Positions 8,073 to 63,425 of a stretch of 64,000 bases of DNA are shown here, in pieces. Origin of the DNA: Salipaludibacillus neizhouensis (GTDB lineage: Bacteria; Bacillota; Bacilli; Bacillales; Salisediminibacteriaceae); assembly GCF_002886185.1 (NCBI RefSeq), contig NZ_KZ614146.1, positions 1,164,098 through 1,228,097 on the forward strand. Reading direction: 5' to 3'. The position numbers and the translations under genes are program-made. The notes beneath the pieces were generated by a model, which saw only the letters and a list, made by a program, of their open reading frames with translations, searched no databases and was not told where the DNA came from. Numbering within the stretch: the first letter of the stretch is position 1; each line of letters starts with the position of its first letter.

Positions 8073-8286
8073 TATAGCACAAGAAAGAGAAGAGAAAAAA
8101 CGGAGTATTTATTATAATGGTGGCTCTATTGGCTGGGCAAAATGCCATGTGCTACCTTGGATAGCATTATATTGGTTTGTTCAATTTGTTAAAAAAATGG
8201 TATAGAAGCCTCTATCCAAGTATTGGTGAGCTGTGTTGAAGAAGTTATTGGTTTTAAATGGAAAATGAAAAATATAAGAAAGAGGG
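8073..8286 (+). other. decayed sequence between IS and next gene
   Basis: A broken frame reads YYNGGSIGWAKCHVLPWIAL and then FVQFVKKM before a stop, preceded by a possible CGGAG ribosome binding site. It looks like a former small membrane-protein cassette. No family recognised. Confidence 0.35.
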
Positions 8287-8555
8287 GTGATTACTATTTC
8301 TAGGGATTATAAGTTCTTTAATAAATGGAGTAAAACTCGAAAAATGGGTAAATGGAAATATATCCTTTTTATGGGATTTTATTTGGAGGAACAGGTTTTT
8401 TATTAGGAAAAGTAGGTTTAGATTTTTTCTTAGATAAAGCGTTTGAAAAGATATCAGAGTACATAATGACTTCAATAATATTTGGTATTCTGTTTGGAAC
8501 TGGTACTTGGTTATATACAGAAAATAGATATAAAAAGTACACAGCAAATAAATAA
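8287..8555 (+). pseudogene. small two-TM membrane protein, frameshifted
   Basis: The upstream frame gives SRDYKFFNKWSKTRKMGKWK and then needs a one-base shift at a run of five T's (about 8370) to continue as YGILFGGTGFLLGKVGLDFF and on to the TAA at 8553-8555. Two hydrophobic segments are seen. The likely start is GTG at 8287, or ATT at 8299 after AGAGGGGTGATTACT. The 67-codon frame from 8352 alone lacks a ribosome binding site, so a frameshifted longer gene fits better. Confidence 0.5.
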
Positions 8556-8559
8556 CACT

Positions 8560-8625
8560 AATCAACTAATGGAAGCGTTAGTGCAAGAAGTTAGCGGCTC
8601 TTTAGTACCTAATTCCTATCAAATG
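8560..8625 (+). repeat. cassette repeat, left box plus start of tail
   Basis: CAACTAATGGAAGCGTTAGTGCAAG followed by TTTAGTACCTAATTCCTATC, directly after the stop of the preceding frame. Confidence 0.75.
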
Positions 8626-8655
8626 CTTTTTATTATGTTAAGGGGTGAGGATTAT

Positions 8656-9261
8656 ATGTCAATGAATAAGCAATGGACTGTTGGGATTTTACTGTTTGAC
8701 GAGATTGAAGTGCTCGATTTTGCAGGTCCTTTTGAAGTTTTTTCCGTGACTAAATATGAAGACTTTACAACTAGAGCATTCATTGTAAGCACCATTTCAG
8801 AAACTGGAGAGATGATACATGCTAGAAACGGGTTGAAAGTTCAACCTGATTACAGCTTTGAGAACGCACCTTCTTTTGATATCGTTGTGGTTCCAGGTGG
8901 ACCTGGAGCAAGAGAAACACAAATACACAATAGACGGGTTATAGAATGGATAACTAGTCAAATGACTAATGTTCATATTATGACTTCGGTTTGCACGGGT
9001 GCTTTTTTACTAGCTAAAGCAGGATTACTTAACGGGAAAACGGCGACTACACATTGGTTTAGCTATGATAGATTTGAAAACAAGTTTCCAAAGGTAACAC
9101 TACAAAGGAATGTAAAATTCGTTGACCAAGGTAATATTGTGACTTCAGGCGGGGTTTCGGCAGGAATAAATATGTCTTTTCATATTGTAAATCGTCTTCT
9201 TGGAAAAGAAATAGCTTCAAATACAGCCCGTGGAATGGAATACGAAATATTACTTGACTAG
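8656..9261 (+). CDS. DJ-1/PfpI family protein (glutamine amidotransferase-like)
   Basis: 201 residues with the GATase1-like fold. Visible are the acidic residue E16 (LLFDEIEVLDFAG), the oxyanion region VVPGGPGARE and the nucleophile elbow TSVCTGAFLLA (C113), followed by GLLNGKTATTHW and VTSGGVSAGI. This pattern is shared with isonitrile hydratases and with the N-terminal domains of AraC-type regulators; no DNA-binding domain is attached here. Start ATG 8656 follows AAGGGGTGAGG. The longer upstream frame runs through the repeat and is not used. The substrate is unknown. Confidence 0.88.
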   Translation: MSMNKQWTVGILLFDEIEVLDFAGPFEVFSVTKYEDFTTRAFIVSTISETGEMIHARNGLKVQPDYSFENAPSFDIVVVPGGPGARETQIHNRRVIEWITSQMTNVHIMTSVCTGAFLLAKAGLLNGKTATTHWFSYDRFENKFPKVTLQRNVKFVDQGNIVTSGGVSAGINMSFHIVNRLLGKEIASNTARGMEYEILLD

Positions 9262-9364
9262 AGTCAGAAAGTAACTACAATTCTATTTCTTGTTTACAAA
9301 AAGTGGTTTAGTAACATTACTGTGAAATTATTTATGCATATTTTCCGCATTTTAGTATTCCGTA

Positions 9365-9475
9365 ATCGTGCCGGATGGTTAAAAGTAGTTCCTAAGATAT
9401 AGAAAATGAGTTGGGGATTTATGTTAAAACGATAATAGAAAATGTGAGGGTTTGTGAATTTTACCACTTAAAGTA
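9365..9475 (+). repeat. degenerate cassette tail (T element)
   Basis: GCCGGATGGTTAAAAGTAG, GGGGATTTATGTTAA and ACGATAATAGAAAA match the second half of the T element; the terminator hairpin has been lost. It is the only feature seen in the gap 9262-9541. Confidence 0.65.
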
Positions 9476-9541
9476 TTGGGGAGGTTTGTTGAAGAGGTGT
9501 TGGAATACTTGGTATAAGAATAGAAAAGTAGGGGTGATTTT

Positions 9542-10036
9542 ATGAAAAGAATTCAGCTAATTTTATTTAGTATGTTATTTGTTTTGGTAGCTTGTACAAC
9601 AGATGAAACTACTATAGAAGAAATAGAATTACCCGAAGATATACCTGAGTTTGTACAAAAAAATGATTTTGAAGCGATTAATTGGGAAGAAAAAGCAGTT
9701 AAATTTGGTAATAGAGGTATCATTGGGAATGAAAATAAGTCAGGCGTCATTGGTGCTGATATGCCTAGTTTAAGCAATCAAAAGTGGATGTGGCATCTAT
9801 GGGGAATGGATAATCTTGAGAACATAGAATTAACGGTTGTTGGTTTTCATAAAGAAACAGGAACTGTCCACCAAATTCTAATAGATGGGTGGACTAAAAC
9901 TCTTAGTGGACCAAACAACGGTGCAGATGCACATACACCATCAACAGTAAAAATACCAGAGTCGGGAGAGTGGGCTTTATTACTTTATACCGATGGTGAA
10001 TTATTTGATACATTAATATATGAAATAAATGAATAG
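9542..10036 (+). CDS. lipoprotein, DUF4871-like
   Basis: A 164-residue lipoprotein: signal peptide of about 17 residues with lipobox LVAC, then an acidic linker and a folded domain. Distinctive strings are MPSLSNQKWMWHLWG, VVGFHKETGTVHQIL and SGEWALLLYTDGELFDTL. These match my memory of the DUF4871 family of Bacillus lipoproteins, whose role is unknown. Exported and membrane-anchored on the outer face. AGGGGTGATTTT precedes the ATG. Confidence 0.8.
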   Translation: MKRIQLILFSMLFVLVACTTDETTIEEIELPEDIPEFVQKNDFEAINWEEKAVKFGNRGIIGNENKSGVIGADMPSLSNQKWMWHLWGMDNLENIELTVVGFHKETGTVHQILIDGWTKTLSGPNNGADAHTPSTVKIPESGEWALLLYTDGELFDTLIYEINE

Positions 10037-10059
10037 TATTCAAGAGATTGCTATTGTTG

Positions 10060-10130
10060 TTGTGCTAAAAGCAGCAATAGTTGAACATGCCATTGGTGCT
10101 GTTGCGGTGCTAAAGGGAGAATGAACGAAG
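10060..10130 (+). repeat. cassette repeat, short form
   Basis: GCAGCAATAGTTGAACATGCC followed by GTTGCGGTGCTAAAGGGAG, the two half-sites of the short repeat form, between the lipoprotein and kinase-like genes. Confidence 0.75.
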
Positions 10131-10185: not shown

Positions 10186-11058
10186 ATGGTCGAATTGCAA
10201 GTTATAAGTTTAGATAAGGTATCATTTCAATTAAAAGAACAACATAACTTCGAATGGCTATTAAATATGGGAGAGGTCTTCAGCGTTTTTGATGAACAAG
10301 ATTCAGGAAATATATGTTTTGGAATTGAAAAAAACGGAACAAAAAAGTTTGTGAAGTATGCTGGTGCAAAGACAAAAGAATATACAGGACAACCAGAAGA
10401 TGCGATAGAGTTGTTAAAGAATTCAATCCCACTTTATAGAGAATTGCAATATAAACATTTGATACATTTAATCGAACATTTTGAGGTTGAGAAAGGGTAT
10501 GTGTTAGTTTTTGAGTGGTTTGATGGGGAATGTCTTCACTCCCATTGGTCGTTTCCCCCACCTCATAAGTACACTCACCCTGGATCTCCGTTTTATCGGT
10601 TCAAGCAATTACCAGTTGAACAACGTTTAAGGTCATTTAATAGTATATTAGATTTCCATCTCAATGTGGAAAAGAATAATTATGTAGCAGTTGATTTTTA
10701 TGACGGTAGTATCTTATATGACTTTAAAAATAATGTAACAAAGATTTGCGACATTGATTTATATAAGAAAAAACCATTTATCAATACAATGGGGCGACTT
10801 TGGGGTTCATCAAGATTTATGTCACCAGAAGAATTCAAAATAGGTTCGAATATTGATGAAAGAACGAATGTATTTAATATGGGAGCAATCGCATTTGGAC
10901 TGTTAGGCGGAGAATTAGACCGTTCAATTTTGTGGGATGCAGGACAGGAACTTTATCAAGTGGCAATAAAGGCAGTTAAATCAGATAGAAGAGAAAGATA
11001 TTCAACAATAGAAGAATTCATCTCAGATTGGGAATCAGCCTCAAAACAGCATTTGTGA
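10186..11058 (+). CDS. Ser/Thr protein kinase-like protein
   Basis: A 290-residue soluble protein with the layout of a Hanks-type kinase but atypical motifs. A possible ATP-lysine region is KNGTKKFVKYAGA (about residues 49-61), the hinge is VLVFEWFDGE, the catalytic loop reads VAVDFYDGSILYDF instead of HRDLKxxN, the metal-binding motif is CDIDLY instead of DFG, and the activation segment ends GSSRFMSPEEF (APE motif). Similar proteins occur as single genes in Bacillus. It could be an active small-molecule or protein kinase, or a pseudokinase. GGAGG precedes the ATG. Confidence 0.8.
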   Translation: MVELQVISLDKVSFQLKEQHNFEWLLNMGEVFSVFDEQDSGNICFGIEKNGTKKFVKYAGAKTKEYTGQPEDAIELLKNSIPLYRELQYKHLIHLIEHFEVEKGYVLVFEWFDGECLHSHWSFPPPHKYTHPGSPFYRFKQLPVEQRLRSFNSILDFHLNVEKNNYVAVDFYDGSILYDFKNNVTKICDIDLYKKKPFINTMGRLWGSSRFMSPEEFKIGSNIDERTNVFNMGAIAFGLLGGELDRSILWDAGQELYQVAIKAVKSDRRERYSTIEEFISDWESASKQHL

Positions 11059-11074
11059 AGCATTATTAAAGCTC

Positions 11075-11190
11075 AAGGAGAGCGTTAGGGAAAGAAGCTA
11101 GCTGCCTTTTAGTACCTAATTGCTATCGATTCTATCTGCACAATCAGGCGCAATTCTGTAGCAAGAATTGTGCTAGTTCCATTTAATGGA
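11075..11190 (+). repeat. cassette repeat, long form with hairpin
   Basis: GGAGAGCGTTAGGGAAAGAAG, then TTTTAGTACCTAATTGCTATC and a GGCGCAATTC/GAATTGTGC hairpin. The hairpin lacks a good T-run in this copy. Confidence 0.8.
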
Positions 11191-11252
11191 ATAAGAGGAC
11201 TTTTCACGAAAAAATGAACTTGTAATTAATGTTATATGAAGGAGGGAATTAC

Positions 11253-11987
11253 ATGAAAGATACTACGAGCGAAATTTATAATAAGTTAGCCAATACATAT
11301 CAAAACGATGTTGATGAGGGGAGTCCTTATAACGCTTATTATGAACGCCCAGCTATGATGACAGCTTTGCCTCCACAATTAAAAGGGAAAAAGGTGCTTG
11401 ATGCTGGTTGTTCGGCTGGATGGTATTCTTCTCAATTATTGCAGCAAGGGGCGGAAGTTACAGGTATAGACGTAAGTCCCGAAATGGTAAAAGCAGCGAA
11501 GCATCGTTTAGGGGGAAAAGCGACAATCCTTCGTCATGATCTTCAAGATACGCTTCCTTTTAATGATAATTCCTTTGATGTGATTGTAAGCTCACTTACA
11601 CTTCATTATTTAAAGGATTGGACATACACATTTCAAGAATTCAACCGCATTCTAAAAGCAGATGGAACCTTTTTATTTTCGGTTCATCACCCATTTATGG
11701 ATTATACAAGACACAAATGCGAGGATTACTTTAAAACCCAATTCTTATCAGAAACCTGGAACAAACCTAATATTACAATTGATGTCAACTTTTACAGAAG
11801 ACCCATGCAAAGCATCGTAAATAAAACCACTCAATTTTTCAATCTCCATGAGCTTATTGAACCCCAACCGCAAGAAAAGATGAAAGAAGTGAAAGAGAAA
11901 TCTTATTTCTATCTTATGACCAGCCCTCATTTCCTTATAGTAAAAGCTACGTCAAAAAAGTTTATGGAAATCCAGCAATTGGGTTAA
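11253..11987 (+). CDS. class I SAM-dependent methyltransferase
   Basis: A 244-residue methyltransferase of the UbiE/Methyltransf_11 type. The SAM-binding motif I is [12 protein letters not shown] (about residues 48-59), motif [12 protein letters not shown], and the post-motif is [15 protein letters not shown]. The long C-terminal part ([10 protein letters not shown] onwards) is shared with small-molecule methyltransferases; the substrate cannot be inferred. ATG 11253 follows GGAGGG, preferred over an upstream in-frame ATG. One of four different methyltransferase genes in the accessory zone. Confidence 0.9.
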
Positions 11988-11999
11988 ACTTTCTCTTCA

Positions 12000-12165
12000 A
12001 CAATCAGGCGCAAATCTGTAATAAGAATTGCGCTTTTTTTTGTGTATAGGCCAGTTTATATAAGAATTAGGTTCTTTAAAATTAGAGATTAAATTGGAAA
12101 ATTTATGTTAATATGATATTAGAAAACCTAAGAGTTTGTGATTTTTTACTTAAACTAAAGAGAAG
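12000..12165 (+). repeat. cassette tail (T element)
   Basis: AACAATCAGGCGCAAATCTG, a hairpin with a T-run, GTATAGGCCAG, TTGGAAAATTTATGTTAATA and CACTT-like TTACTTAAACTAA. It ends the methyltransferase unit and abuts the next gene's leader. Confidence 0.85.
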
Positions 12166-12237
12166 GACTTTCCATTATCAAGTCGAATAATGTTTTTTGA
12201 ATCGATTTTAGTTGAGAAGAGAAAGGTAGAGTTGAGA

Positions 12238-12885
12238 ATGGATGTGAATCGTTTTAAAGCTGTATTATTTGATTTAGATGGAACGTTAATTAACAGTGAA
12301 TGGTTAGGAACGGAATCTTATAATTATGGCATTCAGAAAATATTAAACAGGGAAATAAATGAGGTTGAAAAACAATATCTATTAGGAAAACCATTCAAAG
12401 CCTTAAGTGATTTGTTTCCTTATTTATCATCCATTGAAACAGAAAAAATTATAGAAGAGACTTTAGATTATTATCGTAAATATAACCATATGATTAAAGA
12501 ATATGATGGGATTAAGGAAATGCTTCAAATTCTTAAGGAAAAGGGATTTAAATTAGGTCTTGTTACAGCTAAACTAAAACAAAATGCGACTAAGGAGTTA
12601 CAAAATACTGGTTTATATCCTTTTTTTGAAGTGGTTATGGGAAAGGAAGATTGTCAGGATTTTAAACCTAGTCCTGTTCCTTTATTACAATTAGCTGAAA
12701 AACTTAATGTTAGGCCGATAGAATGTTTATATGTTGGTGATCAACCGACAGACATTCAGGCAACACACTCTGCAAATATGATAAGTGTTGCTGCACTTTG
12801 GGGAGAAGGGAAGACTGAAAGGTTATCCCCTCTGAATCCAACCTTTTTATTTAATAATCCATATCAATTAACTCAATTGTTATAA
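12238..12885 (+). CDS. HAD-superfamily phosphatase
   Basis: A 215-residue haloacid dehalogenase-type hydrolase of the phosphoglucomutase/PpaX-like subfamily. Motif I FDLDGTL carries the nucleophile and acid/base Asp residues; motif II Thr is in GLVTAK; motif III Lys in DFKPSP; motif IV GDQPTDI. An alpha-helical cap lies between motifs I and II. It probably hydrolyses a small phosphate ester. ATG 12238 is chosen because AAAGGTAGAG lies upstream. Confidence 0.9.
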   Translation: MDVNRFKAVLFDLDGTLINSEWLGTESYNYGIQKILNREINEVEKQYLLGKPFKALSDLFPYLSSIETEKIIEETLDYYRKYNHMIKEYDGIKEMLQILKEKGFKLGLVTAKLKQNATKELQNTGLYPFFEVVMGKEDCQDFKPSPVPLLQLAEKLNVRPIECLYVGDQPTDIQATHSANMISVAALWGEGKTERLSPLNPTFLFNNPYQLTQLL

Positions 12886-12917: not shown

Positions 12918-12960
12918 GCTTCTTCAACTAAATGAGAGTTTAGCTGAACAAAGGATTTTA
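12918..12960 (+). repeat. cassette repeat, diverged
   Basis: CTTCTTCAACTAAATGAGAG, then TTTAGCTGAACAAAGG; a worn left box and second half-site. Confidence 0.55.
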
Positions 12961-12985: not shown

Positions 12986-13489
12986 ATGGGTATCGTTATT
13001 GAAAAACCTAAGACAATACATTCAGAAGCTATTGCTAGTATTTGTTCGAAAGGCTGGAAACAAACAGTAGAAGGAATGTTAAGTGAAGAATATTAAATGA
13101 AAAATGTAGAGTATTAGTACGACAATGAACGTGTAAAAAAAGATATAAAAGCAGGCATTTATTCTTACATAGCATTACTTAATTCAGAAGTCGTAGGAGT
13201 AATTGGTGGTGCAAAAACGGAATCAAATGAAGGAGAAATATTTGTATTATATGTTGACGAAACTATTAGATATGAATGGGTTGGAAAAAAACTACTTGAA
13301 ACTTTCACTCAACAACAAATGAGGAAAGGGATTTCTGAACAATGGGTTTCGGTGCAAGAAGATAATCATAGAGGTATCCCATTTTATGAAGCTAGAGGCT
13401 TTTTATTTAAAGAAAATAGAATCAAAGAAACTGAAACAGGAGAACAACAGGTATCATTACGATATGCTAGAAAACTAAATTCTTATTGA
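12986..13489 (+). pseudogene. GNAT acetyltransferase, two nonsense codons
   Basis: A 167-codon frame interrupted by TAA (codon 37) and TAG (codon 44). The downstream part still reads as a GNAT: YIALLNSEVVGVIGG, the acetyl-CoA loop region RYEWVGKKLLETF (normally RGxGxG, here degraded) and GIPFYEARGFLF. Start ATG follows GAGGTGTTGAGTAA. The frame is not shifted, so this is point-mutational decay. Confidence 0.75.
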
Positions 13490-13580
13490 ACAAACGGAGG
13501 TACTTTACTTTAATAAAGCGAACGCACCTTGTTAAGTGAGTGTTCGTAAGATACTTAAATTTTGAGTAGGGAGGTTTAAA

Positions 13581-18669: not shown

Positions 18670-18695
18670 TTTACTATTATTTTGGAGTGATTGTA

Positions 18696-19257: not shown

Positions 19258-19365
19258 AAGTTTACACTTAAACAAACGGGTAGCGTTAGTACAACAAGCA
19301 AGCTAACTTTTAGTACCTAATTCCTATTGATTCTATCTGCAACAATCAAGGTACGATTGTGAGAA
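19258..19365 (+). repeat. cassette repeat, long form
   Basis: ACTTAAACAAACGGGTAG, CGTTAGTACAACAAGC, TTTTAGTACCTAATTCCTAT and ATCTGCAACAATCAAGG, directly after the phosphatase gene. It marks the border to the sigma factor module. Confidence 0.85.
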
Positions 19366-23914: not shown

Positions 23915-24075
23915 ATCTTATAGGCGCAATTCTGTAATAAGAATTGTGTCCTTTCTTTGTGAATAAAGCCAGATGGTTGAAAAGTAGTTCCTAAGATTTT
24001 GAAAAAAATTGGGAAATTTATGTTAATATGATAACAGAAACCCTAAGAGTTTGTGATTTTATTCGCTTAAACTAT
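23915..24075 (+). repeat. cassette tail (T element)
   Basis: TAGGCGCAATTCTGTAATAAG, GCCAGATGGTTGAAAAGTAG, GGGAAATTTATGTTAATATG and CCCTAAGAGTTTGTG, ending TTAAACTATCGGGG. It lies directly upstream of the next gene's ribosome binding site. Confidence 0.85.
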
Positions 24076-24112
24076 CGGGGCGAATACTTCAATAAGAGAA
24101 AGGGATGATTTG

Positions 24113-24508
24113 GTGAAAAAAACAACGGTCTTATCTATAATAACTGGAATAATAATCTTAATGCTAATATCACTAATTCTTCCCAAATATGAAGAGATGC
24201 TTCATTTTTTCAATGCCAAATGGTTTTTAATTTATTCAATTTTATTAAGTGTTTTATATTTCTTATTTGGTATTTTGATTGAGACTAAAAGGGTAATTAA
24301 AGCGTTCTCTAAGAATATAAGTGTTAATTGGTTACAGTTTAGTTTTGTAGTTATTTTAATTTTAATAGTTTTCGTTCCTGCACAATATTGGTATACGCTG
24401 TTTCCTAATAAATTTTTACTTAGTTTTATCTTCAGAATTGAAGTTCAAGTTATTTTGAACGTTCTCGCAGGGATTTTATTTGTACGTTCATTTGATAACG
24501 AGATTTAA
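24113..24508 (+). CDS. membrane protein, four TM
   Basis: 131 residues with four hydrophobic segments (about 7-26, 38-58, 76-95 and 107-126). GTG 24113 is preferred over the TTG just before it because AAAGGGATGA is then 7-8 bases upstream. No family recognised; a stand-alone cassette gene. Confidence 0.65.
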   Translation: MKKTTVLSIITGIIILMLISLILPKYEEMLHFFNAKWFLIYSILLSVLYFLFGILIETKRVIKAFSKNISVNWLQFSFVVILILIVFVPAQYWYTLFPNKFLLSFIFRIEVQVILNVLAGILFVRSFDNEI

Positions 24509-24719
24509 CTTGGCTGTTAACTAAGAGCAATACTTGAATAACATAAAGACTTTCCTAAAATAAGTTACCACAGCTTATCACTTTTAACAGGGTTACTACT
24601 TTAGACATTTACAAATCAAAACGCATGGGAATTCACACCGCTTGTCACAAGGGTTTAGAGATAGAACCAATTTTATTTTGCAATTAGGTAAGAGGAAATA
24701 ATAAAAAGGGGCAAAAATA

Positions 24720-25300: not shown

Positions 25301-25465
25301 ATTCCAAAGGGTGCTGAAGAGGAAGAAAAGATTTTTTATTGTAATGTATTAGGATTAGAAGAAATTGAAAAGCCGGATTCACTTAAAGGTGGTAGGGGCT
25401 TTTGGTTACAACCAAGTAGAAGATGTGTCACATTGGAGAAGGTGAGAAGGGTTGAGATTAGATGA
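25301..25465 (+). pseudogene. glyoxalase/VOC protein fragment
   Basis: The frame reads IPKGAEEEEKIFYCNVLGLE, EIEKPDSLKGGRGFWLQ and then unrelated residues to a TGA overlapping the next start codon (ATGA). This is an internal first-module segment of a vicinal-oxygen-chelate protein; both ends are missing. Confidence 0.65.
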
Positions 25466-26259
25466 GTGGAGAAGAGAGTAAATATGATATGATCGGAAAA
25501 ACGTATAACCAAACAAGAAGACCAGATAAGAGAATAGTAAAAACTTTAATGGAAATATTGAACCTTGATGCACCAGCAACTGTTGTAGACGTTGGAGCAG
25601 GAACAGGGAATTATAGTTTTGAACTTGCTGAGAGTGGTTTTAATGTTCTGGCAGTGGAACCATCCAAAGTAATGAGAGAACAAACAAATGCACATTCAAA
25701 TATTAAGTGGGTAAATGGAGTTGCTGAATATATTCCTCTTGATGACGCTATTGCAGATGCTGTGATATGTATTCTTGCAACTCACCACTTTCAAGACTTA
25801 GAAAAATCCTTTTATGAAATGAAACGAGTATTAAAAGATAATGGAAAGTTAATCATATTATTAGCAGACCCACGTTTGTGTGGTAGCGACTGTTGGTTAG
25901 TTGACTACTTCTCACCTATATTTGAGAAAGCCTATAAAGTTTATAAGCCGCTAAACGAAGTATCAGATACTTTGAGCAAGGTTTTTAATAACCAGGTTCA
26001 GATAGTACCATTCTTTATCCCTCATGATATTGAAGATAAATTCTTTGTTTCAGCATGGAGAAAACCAGAATTATATTTACAATCTTCCTTCCGAGCTGGA
26101 GTTTCGCCATTGGCAAATGCACCAACGGAACTTCTAAACCTTATCTTAGAAAAATTGGAATCTGATCTGGAAAGCGGACAGTGGACAAAGAAATATTGTC
26201 ACTATTTAGAACAGGATTTCTATGAAGGTGGTTATCGTTTCTTGGTTACAGCAAAATAA
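25462..26259 (+). CDS. class I SAM-dependent methyltransferase
   Basis: 265 residues. SAM motif I is VVDVGAGTGNYSFELAE (about residues 39-55), motif II VLAVEPSKVM, followed by VNGVAEYIPLDD and ICILATHHFQDLEKSF. The C-terminal half carries substrate-specific parts including FRAGVSPLAN and YEGGYRFLVTAK. It resembles UbiE-type small-molecule methyltransferases. ATG overlaps the stop of the VOC remnant; AGAAGGGTTGAG lies upstream. A strong terminator follows. Confidence 0.9.
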   Translation: MSGEESKYDMIGKTYNQTRRPDKRIVKTLMEILNLDAPATVVDVGAGTGNYSFELAESGFNVLAVEPSKVMREQTNAHSNIKWVNGVAEYIPLDDAIADAVICILATHHFQDLEKSFYEMKRVLKDNGKLIILLADPRLCGSDCWLVDYFSPIFEKAYKVYKPLNEVSDTLSKVFNNQVQIVPFFIPHDIEDKFFVSAWRKPELYLQSSFRAGVSPLANAPTELLNLILEKLESDLESGQWTKKYCHYLEQDFYEGGYRFLVTAK

Positions 26260-26270
26260 TACAAGTTTCA

Positions 26271-26303
26271 ATGTCCCAATCAAAACTGATTGGGACATTT
26301 TCT
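26271..26303 (+). terminator. rho-independent terminator
   Basis: ATGTCCCAATC/GATTGGGACAT perfect 11-bp stem, 6-base loop, TTTCTTCTT tail. Confidence 0.88.
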
Positions 26304-26304
26304 T

Positions 26305-26490
26305 CTTCAACAAAACGAACAGGCGCAATTCTTTAATAAAGAATGTGTCTATTTCATTTTAGGGCCAGATTGCTGCAGGTGAGAGTGGTATTATCAGAAA
26401 ATTATTACAAATAAAAGTGATAATTGGAAAATTTATGATAACATAATACTAGAAAATATAAGAGTCTGTAAAATTTTCACTTAAAGGGGA
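26305..26490 (+). repeat. cassette tail (T element)
   Basis: TTCAACAAAACGAACAGGCG, a hairpin, GGGCCAGATTGCTGCAGG, TTGGAAAATTTATGATAACA and TTTTCACTTAAAGGGGAG; its end supplies the ribosome binding site of the next gene. Confidence 0.85.
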
Positions 26491-26963: not shown

Positions 26964-26967
26964 TTCT

Positions 26968-27115
26968 TTATTGAACGATCGGACTAGCATTAGTTCAATA
27001 AGCTAGTTGCCTTATAGACCTAATTAATTCTATCACCAACAATCAAGCGGAATTAGTGAACAAACTACGAATTCTGTTGTGGTGCTAACGGGGAGCTTAG
27101 TGAAAGACCACATAG
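26968..27115 (+). repeat. cassette repeat, long plus right box
   Basis: TATTGAACGATCGGACTAG, CATTAGTTCAATAAGCTAG, then AACAATCAAGCGGAATT and TGTTGTGGTGCTAACGGGGAG. This is the clearest intact copy of the right box into which the IS110 element inserts elsewhere. Confidence 0.85.
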
Positions 27116-28399: not shown

Positions 28400-28485
28400 T
28401 CTCTTCTTCAAGTAACGAAGAGCGATAGTTAAACAAGCCTTCGCATTCGTTATTTTGCTAACTGCGAGGTCAGTTATTAGGGAGG
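28400..28485 (+). repeat. cassette repeat, short form
   Basis: CTTCTTCAAGTAACGAAGAG, CGATAGTTAAACAAGCC and TTGCTAACTGCGAGG, directly after the stop of the acetyltransferase gene. Confidence 0.75.
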
Positions 28486-28492: not shown

Positions 28493-28969
28493 ATGTTAGG
28501 AGTAAATAAAGGAGAAGTAAAGTTGGTAACTCATTCGCCAAATTGGAAAAAACTATTTACTGAAGAGAAAGAAATGTTACAATCCAGCATTGGAGAAAAC
28601 ATAAAGGATGTTCAACATTTTGGAAGTACAGCTATTGAAGGTATTAGCGCAAAACCTATCATCGACATGCTTGTTGGAGTAGATTCTTTAGATAAAGTTG
28701 AGAAATTCGATAAAGAGAGATTAAAAGAAAATGGATATTACCATTTATCGAAAGTACGTCTTGAAGGAAAAGTAGTTTTTGCTAAATTCTCTAACTTAGA
28801 AAACCTTACTAAGACACATATAATGCACATAGTTGAACATAACGGTACTTGGTGGAAAGAGCATGCTTTTTTTAGAGATTATCTGAATGAGAATTCTGAA
28901 AAAGCAAAAGAATATGAAACACTAAAAAAAAGGTTGGCATTAAAATATCCTAATGATGAACATTTATAG
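28493..28969 (+). CDS. GrpB-family protein, shortened by a stop codon
   Basis: 158 residues of the GrpB (UPF0157) family, with the signature VQHFGSTAIEGI and SAKPIIDMLVGV, then THIMHIVEHNGTWWKEHAFF and FRDYLNENSEKAKEYE. The family is related to nucleotidyltransferases; its role is not established. A TAG replaces the codon after NDEHL, and the same frame continues ADEKKKFVGDVLSKL to a TAG at 29015-29017, so the protein has lost its last 15 or so residues. GGGAGGGG precedes the ATG. Confidence 0.85.
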   Translation: MLGVNKGEVKLVTHSPNWKKLFTEEKEMLQSSIGENIKDVQHFGSTAIEGISAKPIIDMLVGVDSLDKVEKFDKERLKENGYYHLSKVRLEGKVVFAKFSNLENLTKTHIMHIVEHNGTWWKEHAFFRDYLNENSEKAKEYETLKKRLALKYPNDEHL

Positions 28970-29021: not shown

Positions 29022-29080
29022 TCTTGTTCAACTAAAGGGTGCTACACTTCAATAACGATCTTCCGCAAACTTAGGTGCGA
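29022..29080 (+). repeat. cassette repeat, diverged
   Basis: TTGTTCAACTAAAGGGTGC and CAATAACGATC; left box and a damaged second half. The gap 29018-29425 otherwise has only the terminator at 29255 and unrecognised sequence. Confidence 0.55.
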
Positions 29081-31004: not shown

Positions 31005-31070
31005 AATTAAAGGGTGCGTTAGTGCAAAAAGCTAGCTGCCTTTTAGTACCTAATTCCTATAATAGGAATT
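31005..31070 (+). repeat. cassette repeat, long form
   Basis: ATTAATTAAAGGGTGCGTTAG, CAAAAAGCTAGCTGCC and TTTTAGTACCTAATTCCTAT; the last copy before the arabinose locus. Confidence 0.8.
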
Positions 31071-49086: not shown

Positions 49087-49130
49087 AAGGTACTTAAAGT
49101 AACTACGCGTTAGTTCAATAAGCAAAGAAA
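49087..49130 (+). repeat. cassette repeat, diverged
   Basis: GGTACTTAAAGTAACTACGCG and TTAGTTCAATAAGC: left box and second half-site after the alpha-CTD-like gene, outside the main arrays. Confidence 0.6.
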
Positions 49131-52679: not shown

Positions 52680-52724
52680 AATGGTGAAGCAGCTTCTCTA
52701 TGGGCAGCTATTCTTTGTTCATTG

Positions 52725-52812
52725 CCACTTTGTGAAAAAATGTACTTTAACAAACAGAGTAGCAATAATGGAAGAACCGTAGTTTCTGTTATGGCGCTAA
52801 AGGGGAGGACAG
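52725..52812 (+). repeat. cassette repeat, short form
   Basis: TGTACTTTAACAAACAGAGTAG, CAATAATGGAAGAACC and TCTGTTATGGCGCTAAAGGGGAG. All three landmarks are present. Confidence 0.82.
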
Positions 52813-52844
52813 TTATAGAAGAATTCTTGGAATGGGGAGAAGAA

Positions 52845-53866: not shown

Positions 53867-54328
53867 ATGATTGAAATAATAGCTTATGAAATGGAATATG
53901 TTGGAGGAAAAGTAGAATCAAAATTAAGCCTGACACCATATTCAGATGAATTTCATGATAGTTATCAGAAAATATATAACGAGTGTTTTTACGAGATGAG
54001 AAAAGTATTAGGTGTAAAACCGTATAATTTCTATTCTTCAAAAGAACAGATTGCAGATAAGAAAAATAATATATATCTATTGATACAAAATGAAAAACTA
54101 ATCGCTTCAGTTGCTTGTTACGACAATGAAATAGATGACCTTATTGTAAATAAAAAGTTTCAAGGTCAGGGGTATGGTACACAACTACTTTTTTGGGCAA
54201 TAAATCATATTCAGAATAATTCTAATGAATTACCGATAAAATTACATGTAGCAAAATGGAATGAAAATGCTGTAAGTTTGTACAAGGAAAACAACTTTAA
54301 GTGCACAAAGGTTGAAAAAAAAAGATAA
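53867..54328 (+). CDS. GNAT acetyltransferase
   Basis: 153 residues. The acetyl-CoA loop is QGQGYGTQLLFWA, preceded by DDLIVNKKF and followed by LHVAKWNENAVSLYKENNF. Short C-terminus. GAGGTGAATTT precedes the ATG. Substrate unknown. Confidence 0.88.
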   Translation: MIEIIAYEMEYVGGKVESKLSLTPYSDEFHDSYQKIYNECFYEMRKVLGVKPYNFYSSKEQIADKKNNIYLLIQNEKLIASVACYDNEIDDLIVNKKFQGQGYGTQLLFWAINHIQNNSNELPIKLHVAKWNENAVSLYKENNFKCTKVEKKR

Positions 54329-54485: not shown

Positions 54486-54506
54486 TACATTTGAAAGGTG
54501 GAAAAA

Positions 54507-55253
54507 ATGAAACCATTAGATTATAAAAGTTTTTATGATAAGGTCGGAAAAGCAAATGGATGGGATTTTAGTAAACTAAAGCTTGTATCCGAAGGGGCAA
54601 AGTGGGACTTTAACGAGGAAATAATGAAAAGGTCTAAAGCTTCTGATATCCTACTTGATATTGGTACAGGTGGAGGAGAAAATGTATTAAACCTTGCACC
54701 TTCATTATTTCTTTTAGTTGGAATCGATATATCTGTTGGAATGATGAAAACAGCTCAATCTAATTTATTAAAATCTGAAGTATTAAATGTACGTTTTTCT
54801 CATATGTCTTCTGAACACTTGCTGTTTCCAACCGACTTTTTTGATTTAGTTTCATGTCGTCATGCACCATTTAGTTCAACGGAAGTCGATAGAGTAATCA
54901 AAAAAGGTGGATATTTTTTAACTCAACAAGTTGGTGAGGGTGACAAATTAAATGTAAAAAAAGCATTTAATCGAGGCAATGTAGTTGAAGAATATGGTGC
55001 ATTAAAAAAAAGATATGTTCAAGAATTAAAAGAAGTAGGTTTTTCCGAAGTTCAATCCTTCGAATATAATTCTACTGATTATTTTCAAAGACCAGAAGAC
55101 ATTATATTCTTACTTAAACACACACCAACTATTCCAAACTTTGGTCAGGAAAAGACGGACTTTGAAATACTGGATGATTTTATTAAGAACAATCGAACGG
55201 AGAAAGGGATTCGAACAAACTCTAAAAGATTTCTCATAGTAGCTAAAAAGTGA
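54507..55253 (+). CDS. class I SAM-dependent methyltransferase
   Basis: 248 residues. Motif I is ILLDIGTGGGENVLNLAP, motif II VGIDISVGMM, followed by FDLVSCRHAPFSSTEVDRV and a motif-III region KKGGYFLTQQVGEGDK. An approximately 45-residue N-terminal part precedes the fold. ATG 54507 follows AAAGGTGG. Substrate unknown. Confidence 0.88.
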   Translation: MKPLDYKSFYDKVGKANGWDFSKLKLVSEGAKWDFNEEIMKRSKASDILLDIGTGGGENVLNLAPSLFLLVGIDISVGMMKTAQSNLLKSEVLNVRFSHMSSEHLLFPTDFFDLVSCRHAPFSSTEVDRVIKKGGYFLTQQVGEGDKLNVKKAFNRGNVVEEYGALKKRYVQELKEVGFSEVQSFEYNSTDYFQRPEDIIFLLKHTPTIPNFGQEKTDFEILDDFIKNNRTEKGIRTNSKRFLIVAKK

Positions 55254-58439: not shown

Positions 58440-58790
58440 GAATATCTAGGTGAAAAAATTGAAGTGGAAGATGTAGGTAGATGGGGTTCAACTGAAATAT
58501 CGGTGAAAGTTAGCGATAGTGAAAATTCCACTAGAGCGTTATTTGTTACGAAACGAAATCCTCATTGGTTGATCATTGCACAAAGGAGATATATTATAAA
58601 ACGTATTTCAAGTAGAGTAGGAATCAATAAAAGCATTCACCCCCACCAATTAAGACACAGTTATGCGACTCATTTGATGAATAATGGTACGCCATTAGAG
58701 GTCATTCAAAATCTATTAGGACATGAAAAGAGCGAAACACCGAGGATTTATGCATAACTTAGTGGAACCATGAGAAGAGAACTTTACCGT
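58440..58790 (+). pseudogene. tyrosine recombinase (XerC/D-like), broken
   Basis: The C-terminal catalytic part of a phage-integrase-type recombinase. Seen are ALFVTKRNPHWLI, the His-x-x-Arg motif in HPHQLRHSYATHLMNNG, LLGHEKSE and the tyrosine in TPRIYA. A TAA follows RIYA where relatives have Gln (CAA), then the frame continues LSGTMRRELYRKYFE. The N-terminal half is lost and the first Arg region is degraded (DVGRWGSTEISVKVSDSE). It is the only recombinase seen in the cassette zone besides the IS110 transposases. Confidence 0.75.
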
Positions 58791-59098
58791 AAATATTTTG
58801 AGTATATGAATATATTCCCCTTTGGTTATCCAGTCAGTTGGAAAACATGTTAAACTAAAGGGATGGTATTCGAGAATTTGACAGTACGCTTATTCAAGTA
58901 TTGGGGGGGATTCTTCCACAAAGGATTCCGTTCTTCTTATTGAACATGCAACCCTTAATGGAACAAGAATGATGAAAAAACAACTCACTTTTATGGTGGG
59001 TTTGACCGATACTGTGAAGCAAAATTAATTGCTACCTTTACGAGTTTGATAAAGATATTAGTAATTCGAATAGATAAAAGTCCTCCTAAAATGTAATA
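58791..59098. other. intergenic stretch
   Basis: No gene recognised. A worn cassette-repeat-like string (TATTGAACATGCAACCC, CTTAATGGAACAAG) lies at about 58940-58970. Confidence 0.35.
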
Positions 59099-59461: not shown

Positions 59462-59540
59462 AAGCGCTATTGAAATAACGGGGGTGCATTAGTGGAAGAA
59501 GCGTTTGAGGCTGTTGCGACGCTAATGGGGAGTTTCCTTC
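59462..59540 (+). repeat. cassette repeat, short form
   Basis: CTATTGAAATAACGGGGGTG, CATTAGTGGAAGAAGC and TTGCGACGCTAATGGGGAG; well preserved. The gap 59276-59461 has nothing else. Confidence 0.82.
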
Positions 59541-59630
59541 AATATGGTGATGCCATTTTTATTGAACTAACGAGCAGTATTATTGAAAAAGATGTGTTGC
59601 ATATAAAGGATTGAGAAGGAGAGGGAAAGA

Positions 59631-59954: not shown

Positions 59955-60187
59955 TTCAACGAACGGGTTGCCTAGTTCAACAGGCAATCTACCCTTCAGT
60001 ACCTAATTCCTATCGATTCAATCTGCAACAATTAGGCACAATTCTGTAATAAGAATTGCGCCCTTTTTTGTGTGTAGGGCCAGATTGTAGAAGAAGTAGG
60101 TTCTTTAAAATTTGAAATTAAATTGGAAAATTATGTTAATATGATAATAGAAAACCTAATAGTTTAATTTTTTCACTTAAACTAAAG
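59955..60187 (+). repeat. cassette repeat, complete long form (reference copy)
   Basis: The most complete copy. Left box TTATTCAACGAACGGGTTG, half-site CTAGTTCAACAGGC, TACCTAATTCCTATCGATTC, AATCTGCAACAATTAGG, a GGCACAATTC/GAATTGCGCC hairpin with T-run, GTGTAGGGCCAGATTGTAG, AAATTGGAAAATTATGTTAA, TATGATAATAGAAAACCTAA and TTTTTCACTTAAACTAAAGG. IS110 copy 2 is inserted at its end. Confidence 0.88.
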
Positions 60188-60313
60188 GGGGAGCATTCCT
60201 GTAATTAAAGAATTTAGAGTTTGATAGAAAAAGAGTCCTCTTGGTATGATACGAGGTGTCCAAAGCTTTGCGCGCAAAAGGACCCTTAATTGATAACCAA
60301 GGAGGACTCACTA

Positions 60314-61600
60314 ATGAATTATAACCAAAATCACAAAATTGCTCAAATCACAGCTGAAACACTAATTATAGGTGTTGATATTGCAAAGTTTAATCACGTC
60401 GCAAGAGCACAGGATTTCAGAGGAATGGATCTAGGGAAATCTATTACTTTTGAAAATACTCAATCAGGGTTTGATGGCTTAATAGGTTGGATTAAACAAC
60501 TTCAAGTTGATAATCAAATGAATAAAGTCTTCGTTGGTATGGAGCCAACAGGACATTACTGGCTTAACCTTGCACATTATTTAAAAGAGTTAAATATCAA
60601 GTGTGTTGTGGTCAATCCATTGCACACTAAGAAAAGCAAAGAATTAGACGATAATTCACCAACAAAAAATGACGTGAAAGATGCCAAAGTCATAGCACAG
60701 TTGGTCAAAGACGGTCGCTACGCTGAACCAAGTATCCCTGAAGGTGTTTATGCAGAACTTCGAGGAGCAATGAAAGTGCGCGAGCTATTATCTACTGACC
60801 TACGTTCTGTACAAGGTAAGATTCACAATTGGCTAGACCGCTATTTCCCTGAGTTTTTTACAGCCTTTAAAGACTGGGAAGGAAAAGCTGCACTTCGTAC
60901 TTTAAAGCTTAATCTACTACCACATGAGCTACTGAAACTATCTGATGGTGAAATTTTAAAACACCTCAAAAAGGGCGCCCAAAGAGGTGTTGGTTTAAGT
61001 AGAGTGAGGAGATTAAAAGAGGCGGCTTGTTGTTCAGTCGGCATTAAACAAGGAAATAACATGGCTAAATTAGAGCTTAAAACCTTATTAGCTCAATATG
61101 ACTTATTGAAAGAAAAGTTCGAAGAACTAGATGCTCATTTAGATGAATTGCTTAAACAAGTTCCTGGTGTTCATAATATGGTGGCAATCACAGGAATAGG
61201 GAAAGATACGGTCGCTGCATTTTTAGCTGAAGTAGGCGATCTAAGAAACTATTCTCATCCAAAACAAATTATTAAACTAGCTGGACTAAACTTACGGGAA
61301 AATACATCAGGACTTCATAAAGGACGCACAACCATTACAAAACGAGGGAGAAAGAAGCTCAGAGCTCTCCTCTTTCGAGTTGTAATGCCGTTAGTCGCTA
61401 AGAACCAAGCCTTTAAAGATCTGCATGAGTATTATACGACCCGTCCAGACAATCCGTTAAAAAAAATGCCGTCTTTAATTGCCATATGCAATAAACTAAT
61501 ACGAATCTTATTTACAGTAGGCACTAAACAGTGTGAGTTCAGTGAAGAAAAGATGCTTAGTGATATTCCACACTTTAATAACTTACAGGAAGCTGCATAA
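60314..61600 (+). CDS. IS110-family DEDD transposase, complete active site
   Basis: 428 residues, identical to the transposase at 6350-7636 except that residue 123 is Asp (codon GAT at 60680-60682), giving the full D22-E77-D120-D123 set (KNDVKDAKVIA). It has an RuvC-like N-terminal domain and a serine-containing Transposase_20 C-terminal domain. It recombines the element through a circular form guided by a bridge RNA (family knowledge). This copy is the likelier active source. Confidence 0.94.
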   Translation: MNYNQNHKIAQITAETLIIGVDIAKFNHVARAQDFRGMDLGKSITFENTQSGFDGLIGWIKQLQVDNQMNKVFVGMEPTGHYWLNLAHYLKELNIKCVVVNPLHTKKSKELDDNSPTKNDVKDAKVIAQLVKDGRYAEPSIPEGVYAELRGAMKVRELLSTDLRSVQGKIHNWLDRYFPEFFTAFKDWEGKAALRTLKLNLLPHELLKLSDGEILKHLKKGAQRGVGLSRVRRLKEAACCSVGIKQGNNMAKLELKTLLAQYDLLKEKFEELDAHLDELLKQVPGVHNMVAITGIGKDTVAAFLAEVGDLRNYSHPKQIIKLAGLNLRENTSGLHKGRTTITKRGRKKLRALLFRVVMPLVAKNQAFKDLHEYYTTRPDNPLKKMPSLIAICNKLIRILFTVGTKQCEFSEEKMLSDIPHFNNLQEAA

Positions 61601-61603
61601 CTC

Positions 61604-62036
61604 AAATACCATGTTTTATTAAACTCTATTAACCTAAGTGATTTTAAACAACTTACTTATTATCAAAAGACATTTGAAGCACGGAGAAGTCAGAACATAA
61701 ACTAAAACTACGGGCAGAGACCCTGGCGGGGAGCATATCTGACCTCCACCCTCATGGCAAGGTTGAACGAAGGAATGTAGGAGCATTGACTCTGGGAGAC
61801 ATGGGAGGGTTAACCCCATGAGAAACGTGGAGATCCATCGTTGCGATCATACGTAAAATTCCCCTCTACTTTTAAAAAATTACTTAAGTGGAGCTGGTCA
61901 ATCAGCCCCCTAACATCCATTTTTTAAAAGATAAGTTAAAACTAACCATGTAAATAATGTCTAGTGGTAAAGAGTAGCTATGAAATCCTTAGATAAACGG
62001 AGTTTTCGTAAGAAAACAAAAAGATTATAGAGGGAG
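61604..62036 (+). ncRNA. candidate bridge RNA region, copy 2
   Basis: Identical by eye to 7640-8072. The same junction-matching GGGAGCAT is at 61729-61736. Identity of a long non-coding end with an intact transposase favours a functional RNA. Confidence 0.4.
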
Positions 62037-62098
62037 ATTAGTTAGAGAAGGATATTTCACACAAATTAGCAGAGGTTTCAATAAAGGGGGAGTTCTTA

Positions 62099-62551
62099 AT
62101 GTTTTATGTCAATGTTGAAGGTGCAGTATACAAGGAAGGTAAATGGTTGATTATTAGTCGTAGTTTGAAAGAAGGGCATGCGGGTGGTCTTCTTTCCCTT
62201 GTCGGAGGTACAGTTGAAAATGAGGGTAACTCAACAAAAATATTGGAAAGAACTTTAAGAAGAGAATTGTTCGAAGAGGTTGGAGTCAAGGTAAAAGACA
62301 ATATGGATTATGTAAGAAACACTTCATTTAAACTAGATAATGGTAGCGTAGTAATCGATATTGTTTTTTTATGTGAGTTTGAGGAAGGTGAAGCTTTTGC
62401 TAAAAGTCCAAATGAAGTTGATGCAGTATATTGGATGTCCACAGAGGAATTAGTTAAACATCCACAAACTCCTATATGGTTGACTGATAGTATAAAGGAA
62501 GCTGAAACCCTGCTTAAAGTAAAAACTTATTCAACTAACGGAGTGCAATAG
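62099..62551 (+). CDS. Nudix hydrolase
   Basis: 150 residues, paralogue of the gene at 18232. GGLLSLVGGTVENEGN and the Nudix helix LERTLRRELFEEVGVKV with RE and EE catalytic residues; here the box is closer to consensus than in the paralogue. The last eight codons (TYSTNGVQ and stop) are encoded by the following cassette repeat, so the repeat supplies the C-terminus. AAAGGGGGAG precedes the ATG. Confidence 0.9.
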   Translation: MFYVNVEGAVYKEGKWLIISRSLKEGHAGGLLSLVGGTVENEGNSTKILERTLRRELFEEVGVKVKDNMDYVRNTSFKLDNGSVVIDIVFLCEFEEGEAFAKSPNEVDAVYWMSTEELVKHPQTPIWLTDSIKEAETLLKVKTYSTNGVQ

Positions 62552-62605
62552 TTGAACAAGCTGTGATTGCAGTTATATTGCAGAACGGGGAGGTATGTTT
62601 AATTA
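62528..62605 (+). repeat. cassette repeat, short form
   Basis: TTATTCAACTAACGGAGTG, CAATAGTTGAACAAGC and ATTGCAGAACGGGGAGG. It overlaps the end of the Nudix gene. Confidence 0.85.
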
Positions 62606-62618
62606 AAAAGGAGGATTT

Positions 62619-62786
62619 ATGAATAAATTAGGTTTATATTTTACAATTGGTATCCCAATTTTTTGCATGATTATTCTACTTAGGTTTTCTGGACTGATTG
62701 GCAACCCAACATTTCTGATTATAATTACTATCTTTATTTTCTTTCTACACTTTCTAAGAAAAAAATCACAAATCAATTTCAGATAG
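62619..62786 (+). CDS. 55-residue membrane protein, two TM
   Basis: A short frame: MNKLGLYFTIGIPIFCMIIL, then LIIITIFIFFLHFLRKKSQ. AAAAAGGAGG is an excellent ribosome binding site. It stands alone between two cassette repeats, a minimal cassette. No family recognised. Confidence 0.65.
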   Translation: MNKLGLYFTIGIPIFCMIILLRFSGLIGNPTFLIIITIFIFFLHFLRKKSQINFR

Positions 62787-62796
62787 TAAAACTGTC

Positions 62797-62875
62797 TTCA
62801 ATTAACGGGAGAGCGTTAGCGCAATAATAGTCAACGTTTCTGTTATGGTGCTATTGGGGAGGAGAGTTTGAGTTT
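62797..62875 (+). repeat. cassette repeat, short form
   Basis: CTTCAATTAACGGGAGAG, CGTTAGCGCAATAATAG and TCTGTTATGGTGCTATTGGGGAG; well preserved. Confidence 0.85.
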
Positions 62876-62895
62876 TTTGGACACGGAGGTGTAGA

Positions 62896-63359
62896 ATGAA
62901 TAAGTTTTTATCAGCAGTATTAGCTATTATTTTATTTTCAGCACTATATTCTTGGTTTGGCTATGTCCCCATTTCTCAGCGAGAACCTAATGTTTATTAC
63001 TTTGGTTTTTTTGAAACGTTTGTTTTTGTCGTTATCTATGCTGGACCTGTTTTTTTCTTGCGGGAGTACCACTTTCTATAATTATTGATAAATTAAGTAG
63101 AACGAATAGACATTCAAAATGGAGGAGTTACTTTCTCCAATTAGGTTTATATTCCTTTGCTGGTGTACTTATGGCTATGATTTATCTTTTACTATTTTTT
63201 CAACCTACACGTCTTTTTGATGCTACTTTGTTTTCAATCCTCGGATTTTTAGCATCTAATTTTCCCCTTTCATTTTTATTTATTGCTAACGAAATTAAAA
63301 AAGAAATAAATGATGATATTTTATTAAACAAACGGAGTAGCGTTAGTTCAACAAGCTAG
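62896..63359 (+). pseudogene. four-TM membrane protein, frameshifted
   Basis: ATG after GGAGGTG begins MNKFLSAVLAIILFSALYSW. At the T-run near 63050 the frame breaks; a one-base change continues as LAGVPLSIIIDKLSRTNRH, GVLMAMIYLLLFFQPTRLF and FPLSFLFIANEIKKEI. The last residues (NKRSSVSSTS) and the stop come from the following cassette repeat. About 154 residues if repaired; function unknown. Confidence 0.65.
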
Positions 63360-63425
63360 TTGACTTATAGTTCCTAATTCCTATCGATTCTATCTGCAAC
63401 AATCAGGCACGATTGTGTGGAACAA
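63325..63425 (+). repeat. cassette repeat, long form
   Basis: ATTAAACAAACGGAGTAG, CGTTAGTTCAACAAGCTAG, ATAGTTCCTAATTCCTATCG and ATCTGCAACAATCAGGCACG. Last copy of the family in the window. Confidence 0.87.

Follow-up and report, generated by a model that had tools for sequence, protein, structure and literature searches.

A probable integron-like gene-cassette system of Bacillales with two classes of palindromic site and a linked tyrosine recombinase

The described systems closest to the one considered here are integrons and the dif (pdif) modules of Acinetobacter. The available text of the IntegronFinder 2.0 report records a single complete integron in Firmicutes, which supplied 22% of its genomes, and a few clusters of attC sites lacking integrases (CALIN) (PMC9024848). 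In the accessible part of the account of Acinetobacter dif modules, XerC and XerD act on the modules, which are bounded by inversely oriented sites (PMC13141974). The stretch analyzed here is a window of 64,000 nucleotides from Salipaludibacillus neizhouensis (assembly GCF_002886185.1, contig NZ_KZ614146.1, positions 1,164,098 to 1,228,097, forward strand), in which copies of one repeat punctuate two blocks of genes. The repeats very probably belong to an integron-like gene-cassette system of Bacillales with a dedicated tyrosine recombinase and two classes of site, in which exchange takes place mainly within a class.

An earlier note on this window had described about 29 copies of a degenerate repeat in two blocks, and both count and layout are matched. 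A matrix for the palindromic site, applied at a score of 13, finds 29 sites in the window and 0-1 in each of 10 shuffles; 28 of them lie in the two blocks (1-31.5 kb and 48.5-64 kb) and the other one in between (31.5-48.5 kb). The three landmark boxes of that note occur above chance (left box 14 matches, shuffle mean 1.23; half-site 8, shuffle mean 0.08; right box 4, shuffle mean 0.01), but they are not separate elements: left box and half-site together make up a single palindrome, one arm each, and the right box corresponds to the left arm of another site class with its spacer. The statement that repeats mostly follow a stop codon is true of 12 of the 42 plus-strand open reading frames (ORFs) in the blocks, some of which are not genes, where a site starts -30 to +60 bp from the stop (7.1% at random), and fails for the remainder. 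The array extends past the window, and further arrays exist elsewhere in the same genome, where the half-site with up to 2 mismatches has 29 matches, mostly clustered on contigs C1, C2 and C3, versus 0 for the reversed pattern.

Palindromic sites and the units between them

Each site is a palindrome of about 34 bp, of the kind used by tyrosine recombinases, with the form CTTATTSAACTAAC-spacer-GTTAGTTSAATAAG, arms of about 14 bp and a spacer of mostly 6 or 7 nucleotides. Two spacer classes are present across genera: T1, with GGGTGC (146 instances), GGGGGC, GGGCGC and others, and T2, with GGGGCAG (110 instances), GGGCAG, GAAGCAG, TGGCAG and others. Among 138 non-redundant T1-T2 units, the T1 spacer has 6 nucleotides in 111 and the T2 spacer 7 in 96. 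The T1 sites sit after genes and the T2 sites before them, giving rows of the order T2-gene-T1-terminator-T2-gene-T1, and neighboring sites no more than 3 kb apart are co-oriented in 718 of 743 pairs (97 loci). The distance from T1 to T2 is 40-80 bp in 104 of 150 cases and the median distance from T2 to T1 is 656 bp. More specifically, the longest ORF of the T2...T1 gene stretches is in the sense direction in 186 of 209, and such sense ORFs have a median of 154 codons and a stop a median of 24 bp ahead of T1. The T1-T2 units, mostly about 60 bp long, carry a sense-strand hairpin followed by a T-run in 103 of 138, with 5 in antisense and 18.6 in shuffles; a larger unit of about 380 bp is common to two species, at different places (L170:18661-19042 and L175:16199-16575). 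The matrix behind these counts was trained on stretches of the S. neizhouensis genome together with loci L109, L117, L119, L120, L122, L124, L127, L128 and L129.

In S. neizhouensis the unit also takes a long form, a 239-nucleotide model of which was built by iteration and overlaps the first repeat. In the ten stretches of this genome scanned it gives 88 hits at E<=1, and 3 of these hits run against the array orientation. The long form adds a conserved block, TTGGAAAATTTATGTTAAAATGATAATAG, ahead of the T2-like arm; the block that precedes T2-like arms contains TGTTAAAAT and resembles an extended -10 promoter element. A promoter role would be a guess from this resemblance, and scans of two long-form stretches gave no match to a sigma-70 promoter and no terminator. 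No known RNA family was matched at gathering scores. At a subset of sites the motif TTGTGAA was seen by eye about 20 bp ahead of CTTAAACTAAC (T1 left flanks at L146:5535, L186:6138 and window 19250-19270, and also left flanks of insertion sequence (IS) copies), and perhaps marks an accessory binding site.

The linked recombinase

The earlier note described the array as lacking an integrase, a view that cannot be maintained: an intact recombinase gene of 283 codons lies 11 kb to the right of the window (C1:1239320-1240171), a broken copy lies inside it, and the recombinase is linked to sites in other genomes. The protein matches Pfam Phage_integrase with 139.9 bits and scores best against the XerA, XerC and XerD models, yet below their cut-offs, and its nearest solved relatives (4a8e, 1a0p) are of the XerC/XerD/XerA kind. 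The integron-integrase profile gives 99.8 bits for the whole recombinase against a cut-off of 265, with profile positions 178-229 unmatched, and the alignment to IntI1 shows 27% identity over 215 columns and 39 residues fewer between the shared boxes. The 83 intact copies, aligned over 274-283 residues, are 62-100% identical to that of S. neizhouensis, and at least 98% of them keep R141, K165, H232, R235, H258 and Y267, which we take to be the catalytic R, K, H, R, H/W and Y of tyrosine recombinases. In a tree of 31 array recombinases and six Xer rows the family is separate from XerC/XerD with a support of 100/100; a 48% relative is unresolved from the family, and IntI1 stands apart on a very long branch of unsure place. 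Recombinases 47-54% identical to that of S. neizhouensis were seen at G002:C22:205062, G023:C1:2304842, G333:C20:8432 and G234:C45:92363, and may serve a sister site family.

The recombinase or a relative at E<=1e-45 is found in 99 of 397 genomes of the order and in 49 of 135 genera, a count in which several copies are broken and which also covers a group of remoter proteins of about 32-43% identity. When named genomes were scanned, with the best 80 of 128 kept, 79 loci were obtained, in Neobacillus, Peribacillus, Mesobacillus, Lysinibacillus, Pontibacillus, Halobacillus, Oceanobacillus, Sporosarcina and others, among which L136 repeats the sequence of L109 and L182 may duplicate L117. CP053689, which bears the name Arthrobacter citreus NEB 577, seems to come from a genome placed in the same order as the window and looks misnamed. 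The matrix finds 769 sites in these 79 loci (1.29 Mb), with at least one site in 76 and at least three in 65. For comparison, 20 loci of 20 kb were drawn at random from 18 genomes with the recombinase, three of the loci being S. neizhouensis stretches; they hold 9 sites in 2 loci, and shuffles hold 3. Of the 18 loci with G handles in the linkage survey, six were training data, and L123 lies within L129 by coordinates.

The position of the gene among the sites follows its clade. In the larger clade (72 loci, novalis-like) sites within 6 kb point against the recombinase gene, 603 to 46; in the S. neizhouensis clade (25 loci) they point along with it, 66 to 4. Inversion of the S. neizhouensis gene by flanking IS copies was considered and rejected on this co-orientation. 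Where both neighbors are resolved, the gene in both clades lies mostly between T1 and T2, and the intact S. neizhouensis gene has a T1 site centered 182 bp upstream and, about 130-165 bp downstream, a T2 site recognized by eye whose spacer is GAACCAG. The nearest site is a T2 within 300 bp upstream in 41 of 72 larger-clade loci (unclassed in 8 of 72), and a T2 within 300 bp downstream in 5 of 25 loci of the S. neizhouensis clade. By analogy, this T2 would correspond to attI, the docking site beside an integrase gene. Sites within 300 bp upstream of 98 recombinases number 64, and in 34 of them the center lies 80-89 bp from the start of the match.

The host proteins XerC and XerD, as in Acinetobacter dif modules, could conceivably recombine the sites in place of the linked recombinase. 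In size and spacer the sites resemble dif, the recombinase itself is Xer-like, and the arrays on C2 and C3 have no close recombinase copy; several other tyrosine recombinase genes of about 22-33% identity over longer stretches were observed at C3:236-240 kb, immediately ahead of the C3 array. Dif modules demonstrate that host Xer can sustain an arrangement of this kind, according to the part of that account available (PMC13141974). The occurrence of sites around the dedicated recombinase in 76 of 79 loci and their narrow placement ahead of its gene speak against this explanation, as do three genomes of the same genus that have no close copy: their half-site matches number 5, 3 and 1 (controls 2, 1 and 0; G001, G005 and G002, the last with the 48% relative) versus 37 in S. 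neizhouensis (control 1). Exchange by host Xer is thus very unlikely, and a dedicated recombinase is the preferred reading.

In the same genus only 1 of 7 other genomes has a relative beyond Xer level, at 48% identity. Among the 397 genomes surveyed with the half-site, genus g30 is the most clearly raised and most others have a few matches, near control; a strict full-site pattern has 0 hits in S. neizhouensis and hits in 2 of 35 family genomes. Genomes of g30 (family f23; G321, G236 and G379) were seen to be rich in T1/T2-type sites. Nine plasmid records match the recombinase, eight of them at 60-80% identity and several in pieces. In the phage collection 17 records match, none above 38.5% identity. 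More distant recombinases also occur, for example one of 38% identity on a Lysinibacillus plasmid with phage genes.

Breakpoints of identity and the movement of cassettes

Copies of cassettes in different arrays of the S. neizhouensis genome break at sites. Examples from the window are the unit at 24067-24515, which breaks so at both ends, and that at 25444-26344, at least at its 3' end. Among 20 copy pairs displayed at least 8 have an end at a site; other pairs are IS-like or stop within genes or at runs of N. Cassettes are also shared between genera: Jeotgalibacillus soli and Bacillus timonensis have in common a 496-bp cassette with 92.5% identity from the T2 spacer to the GGGTGC of T1 between unrelated flanks, a second, 92.6% identical, is common to Neobacillus niacini AT2.8 and Peribacillus glennii, and similar breaks are found among other pairs of the 11 cross-genome pairs displayed.

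Near-identical recombinase genes carry different arrays, and in 2 of 4 pairs displayed the arrays diverge from the recombinase-side T2. Identity between locus L156 of N. niacini PL-B1 and L157, a record named Paenibacillus sp., is 98.8% as far as this T2, past which the two are unrelated, and the 96.9% identity of L180 and L186 likewise stops there. In L170 and L175 (N. novalis and N. soli; 99.1%) identity stops directly behind GGGTGC, as it does at the left end in L146 and L148 (99.8%). When flanks were compared with shifts allowed, 136 one-sided pairs were obtained; both sites could be classed in 113, and the classes are equal in 111 of these. A gap-free comparison let in shifted pairs (e.g. 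L170/L175 at 9898), and loci L109-L113, L117 and L123 were excluded from both comparisons. These pairs form 67 connected groups, 53 of one class only, 2 of both classes and 12 with unclassed sites. The ends of identity, mostly at spacers in the displayed pairs, together with this agreement in class, suggest that gene cassettes (T2-gene-T1), terminator cassettes (T1-hairpin-T2) and the recombinase cassette move as units by site-specific recombination, and bear out the proposal of the earlier note that the repeats are recombination sites of a mobile cassette system of Bacillaceae, to which relatives of that family are to be added.

The same tendency is seen in an overall BLAST comparison, from which L123 was excluded. 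The ends of 620 unfiltered high-scoring segment pairs (HSPs) lie within 20 bp of a site in 514 of 1186 cases, compared with 8.3% expected at random. After removal of pairs that overlapped the recombinase, lay in multicopy regions, were below 80% identity or 250 bp, or were near-tandem, 196 HSPs were left, with the 5' end at a site in 82 and the 3' end in 66.

Ordinary dispersed terminator or regulatory repeats, shuffled by homologous recombination between the copies, would account for the terminator-like hairpins and the many long-form hits described above. The bcr repeats of the Bacillus cereus group are likewise dispersed in Bacillus genomes. Against the reading as ordinary repeats, the arms are palindromic, the orientation is strict, the sites are tied to one recombinase clade, the displayed breaks lie at a spacer of 6-7 bp between otherwise unrelated flanks, also across genera, and imperfect matches of 34 bp are poor substrates for homologous recombination. 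This explanation is therefore highly improbable. Alternatively, the T1-hairpin-T2 stretch may fold as a single strand in the manner of attC and be cut once. A pair of simple sites spaced by about 60 bp and enclosing a hairpin does have the outline of attC, and in T2 pairs with homologous upstream sequence the unbroken identity often stops 14-17 bases in, at the edge of left arm and spacer. This integron-type mechanism is nevertheless unlikely, since breaks occur at T1 as well as T2, each site is palindromic on its own, and the 138 units show no covariation of T1 left arm with T2 right arm (z 0.8) or of T1 right arm with T2 left arm (z 1.4). An attC-like folding of the unit is not supported by this comparison of arms, which is not a direct assay. 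A kinship with attC, which the earlier note raised without claiming homology, is likewise unsupported, as the attC-like fold is without covariation, the recombinase is without the IntI insert, and GTTAGTT misfits the core GTTRRRY.

In the system favored here, the sites, their two classes and co-orientation, the breakpoints at spacers, the recombinase linkage and the terminator-like hairpins are directly supported. The linked recombinase of about 280 residues would act on double-stranded palindromic sites, mainly T1 with T1 or T2 with T2, presumably with circles as intermediates. Exchange at two T2 or two T1 sites would remove or insert one gene together with one terminator, whereas the use of T2 for excision and T1 for insertion would allow gene and terminator to be exchanged separately. 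Such a successive use of both classes fits the gene units that break at T2 ahead of the gene and at T1 after it. The recombinase gene would itself occupy a T1...T2 interval, and the adjoining T2 would be the docking place.

Several observations weigh against this scheme. Recombination is read from sequence comparison, and the agreement of class in 111 of 113 pairs is not independent of site conservation, as the class-defining spacer lies at the breakpoint. Only 37 of the 196 filtered HSPs have both ends at sites, and 114 five-prime and 130 three-prime ends lie away from any site. The right end of identity in L146/L148 is about 27 bp from a T1 site and not in its spacer. No site reaches the threshold in 3 of the 79 named loci, the loci of the S. 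neizhouensis clade are site-poor, and two Peribacillus frigoritolerans plasmids, in which the recombinase match is in two pieces, have a nearly unchanged gene order.

The S. neizhouensis window and its passengers

The features of the window are as follows; scores are matrix scores, HMM denotes the hidden Markov model of the long form, and all features are on the plus strand.

5948..5981, +, T1-type site with a degenerate arm (score 17.5)
6221..8072, +, IS110-family element with ORF 6326-7636, inside a T2-type site (99.9% copy of 60185-62036; junctions; Pfam DEDD_Tnp_IS110)
8557..8590, +, T1 site (score 23.8)
8656..9261, +, cassette gene, DJ-1/PfpI family (Pfam)
10056..10089, +, T1-like site (score 20.5)
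10186..11058, +, cassette gene, protein-kinase-like (Pfam 31.0 bits, just below the cut-off of 31.7)
11071..11234, +, long repeat form, model positions 6-188 (HMM hit)
11229..11987, +, cassette gene, methyltransferase (Pfam)
11990..12157, +, long repeat form with terminator part, conserved block and T2-like left arm (HMM positions 66-237)
12190..12885, +, cassette gene, HAD hydrolase (Pfam)
12919..12952, +, unclassed site (score 29.4)
13482..13517, +, unclassed site (score 27.5)
19264..19298, +, T1 site behind the histidine-phosphatase gene 18687-19241 (score 21.4)
23922..24074, +, long repeat form with terminator part, conserved block and T2-like arm (HMM positions 82-237)
24067..24515, +, cassette with a small protein without Pfam match (87% and 85% copies in two other arrays of the genome)
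25444..26344, +, methyltransferase cassette (93% copy in another array)
26967..27002, +, T1 site, 4 bp past the stop of the GNAT gene 26499-26963 (score 26.1)
27076..27109, +, T2 site with spacer GGGGAG (score 10.7, under the count threshold of 13)
28403..28437, +, T1 site, 8 bp past the stop of the GNAT gene 27865-28395 (score 30.6)
28493..28969, +, cassette gene, GrpB family (Pfam)
29023..29056, +, T1 site (score 22.8)
31009..31060, +, first part of a long repeat form, right edge of the first block (HMM hit)
49090..49122, +, T1-like site that opens the second block on its left (score 28.8)
52742..52821, +, pair of T1 (52742-52777) and T2 (52788-52821) at the front of the GNAT-domain ORF 52722-53726, whose true start is uncertain (matrix)
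53867..54328, +, cassette gene, GNAT acetyltransferase (Pfam)
54498..55253, +, cassette gene, methyltransferase (Pfam)
58518..58799, +, remnant of the array recombinase, C-terminal third with one in-frame stop (66% identity to residues 189-283)
59466..59591, +, pair of T1 (59466-59501) and T2 (59558-59591) (matrix)
59955..60184, +, full long form with site, terminator part, conserved block and T2-like arm (HMM positions 2-237, 202 bits)
60185..62036, +, IS110-family element, copy 2, likewise inside a T2-type site (99.9% copy of 6221-8072; junctions)
62099..62551, +, cassette gene, Nudix hydrolase (Pfam)
62526..62560, +, T1 site sharing bases with the final codons of the Nudix gene (score 32.9)
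62793..62828, +, T1 site with the left arm of a T2 behind it at 62842-62861 (matrix)
63320..63355, +, T1 site opening the last repeat of the window (score 30.9)

The stretch behind the T2 site at 27076..27109 shares 81% identity with a stretch of Bacillus solitudinis L182. Two distinct IS110-family elements (Pfam) lie inside array sites of this genome, nearly always of T2 type. Ends were located for 3 copies of the first, and each of these lies in a T2-type site; the copy at 6221..8072 splits its site into CTAACGGGGAG at its left and TATAGCACAAG at its right. The second (L011:13600-14874 and copies) has 7 left ends, each behind the left-arm end AAACT. Its right ends number 6, of which 5 precede a T2-type remainder and 1 a T1-type one (GGAGTGC). 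It is as if the array sites were the target of both elements, and IS110-type elements enter attC sites too. Reverse transcriptases of the group II intron type were also observed in or near arrays (L010:16440-18883 by Pfam; L129:29244-30572, L131:5371-7176 and L131:31081-32883 by record annotation).

Comparison with described systems

If active, this system would give many Bacillales a cassette-collecting platform built from parts other than those of the integron, and would explain large variable regions in Bacillaceae. It would also provide a route for the exchange of single genes between genera, as in the 92.5% identical cassette found in two of them, and make available for study a double-site recombinase that has two classes of site. 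No description of it was found in the literature searched, which took in no preprints and few subscription journals, and one may be in print elsewhere. It is likely to be a third, independently evolved cassette platform spread across Bacillales, with a dedicated Xer-like recombinase, two orthogonal double-stranded site classes, gene cassettes, mobile terminators (in S. neizhouensis perhaps terminator plus promoter) and a recombinase cassette that moves within the row.

The likeness to integrons, chromosomal superintegrons included, lies in the long rows of co-oriented single-gene cassettes and in the tyrosine recombinase beside a docking-type site; as with integrons and CALIN, the cargo consists of small enzymes and small proteins, and arrays occur with and without a recombinase gene. 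Unlike in integrons, the recombinase is not IntI and has no IntI insert between the conserved boxes, the sites are pairs of palindromes in two spacer classes without attC-type covariation, the recombinase gene stands inside the row in a T1...T2 interval, and terminators appear to move as cassettes.

The Acinetobacter dif modules, as far as the accessible text describes them, share with these arrays dif-like sites, a short spacer, partners of like spacer and two alternating types of module (PMC13141974), and the like-spacer rule is reflected here, by comparison only, in the equal class of 111 of 113 classed pairs. In contrast to dif modules, the sites in Bacillales are co-oriented (718 of 743), their arms are nearly symmetrical, T1 and T2 spacers alternate, and the sites are linked to a dedicated recombinase. 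That recombinase has its nearest solved relatives in XerC, XerD and XerA, and differs from them in its separate clade, its patchy distribution and its linkage to arrays. The arrays are best regarded as a form of recombinase-driven cassette array and belong neither to integrons nor to the Acinetobacter dif modules.

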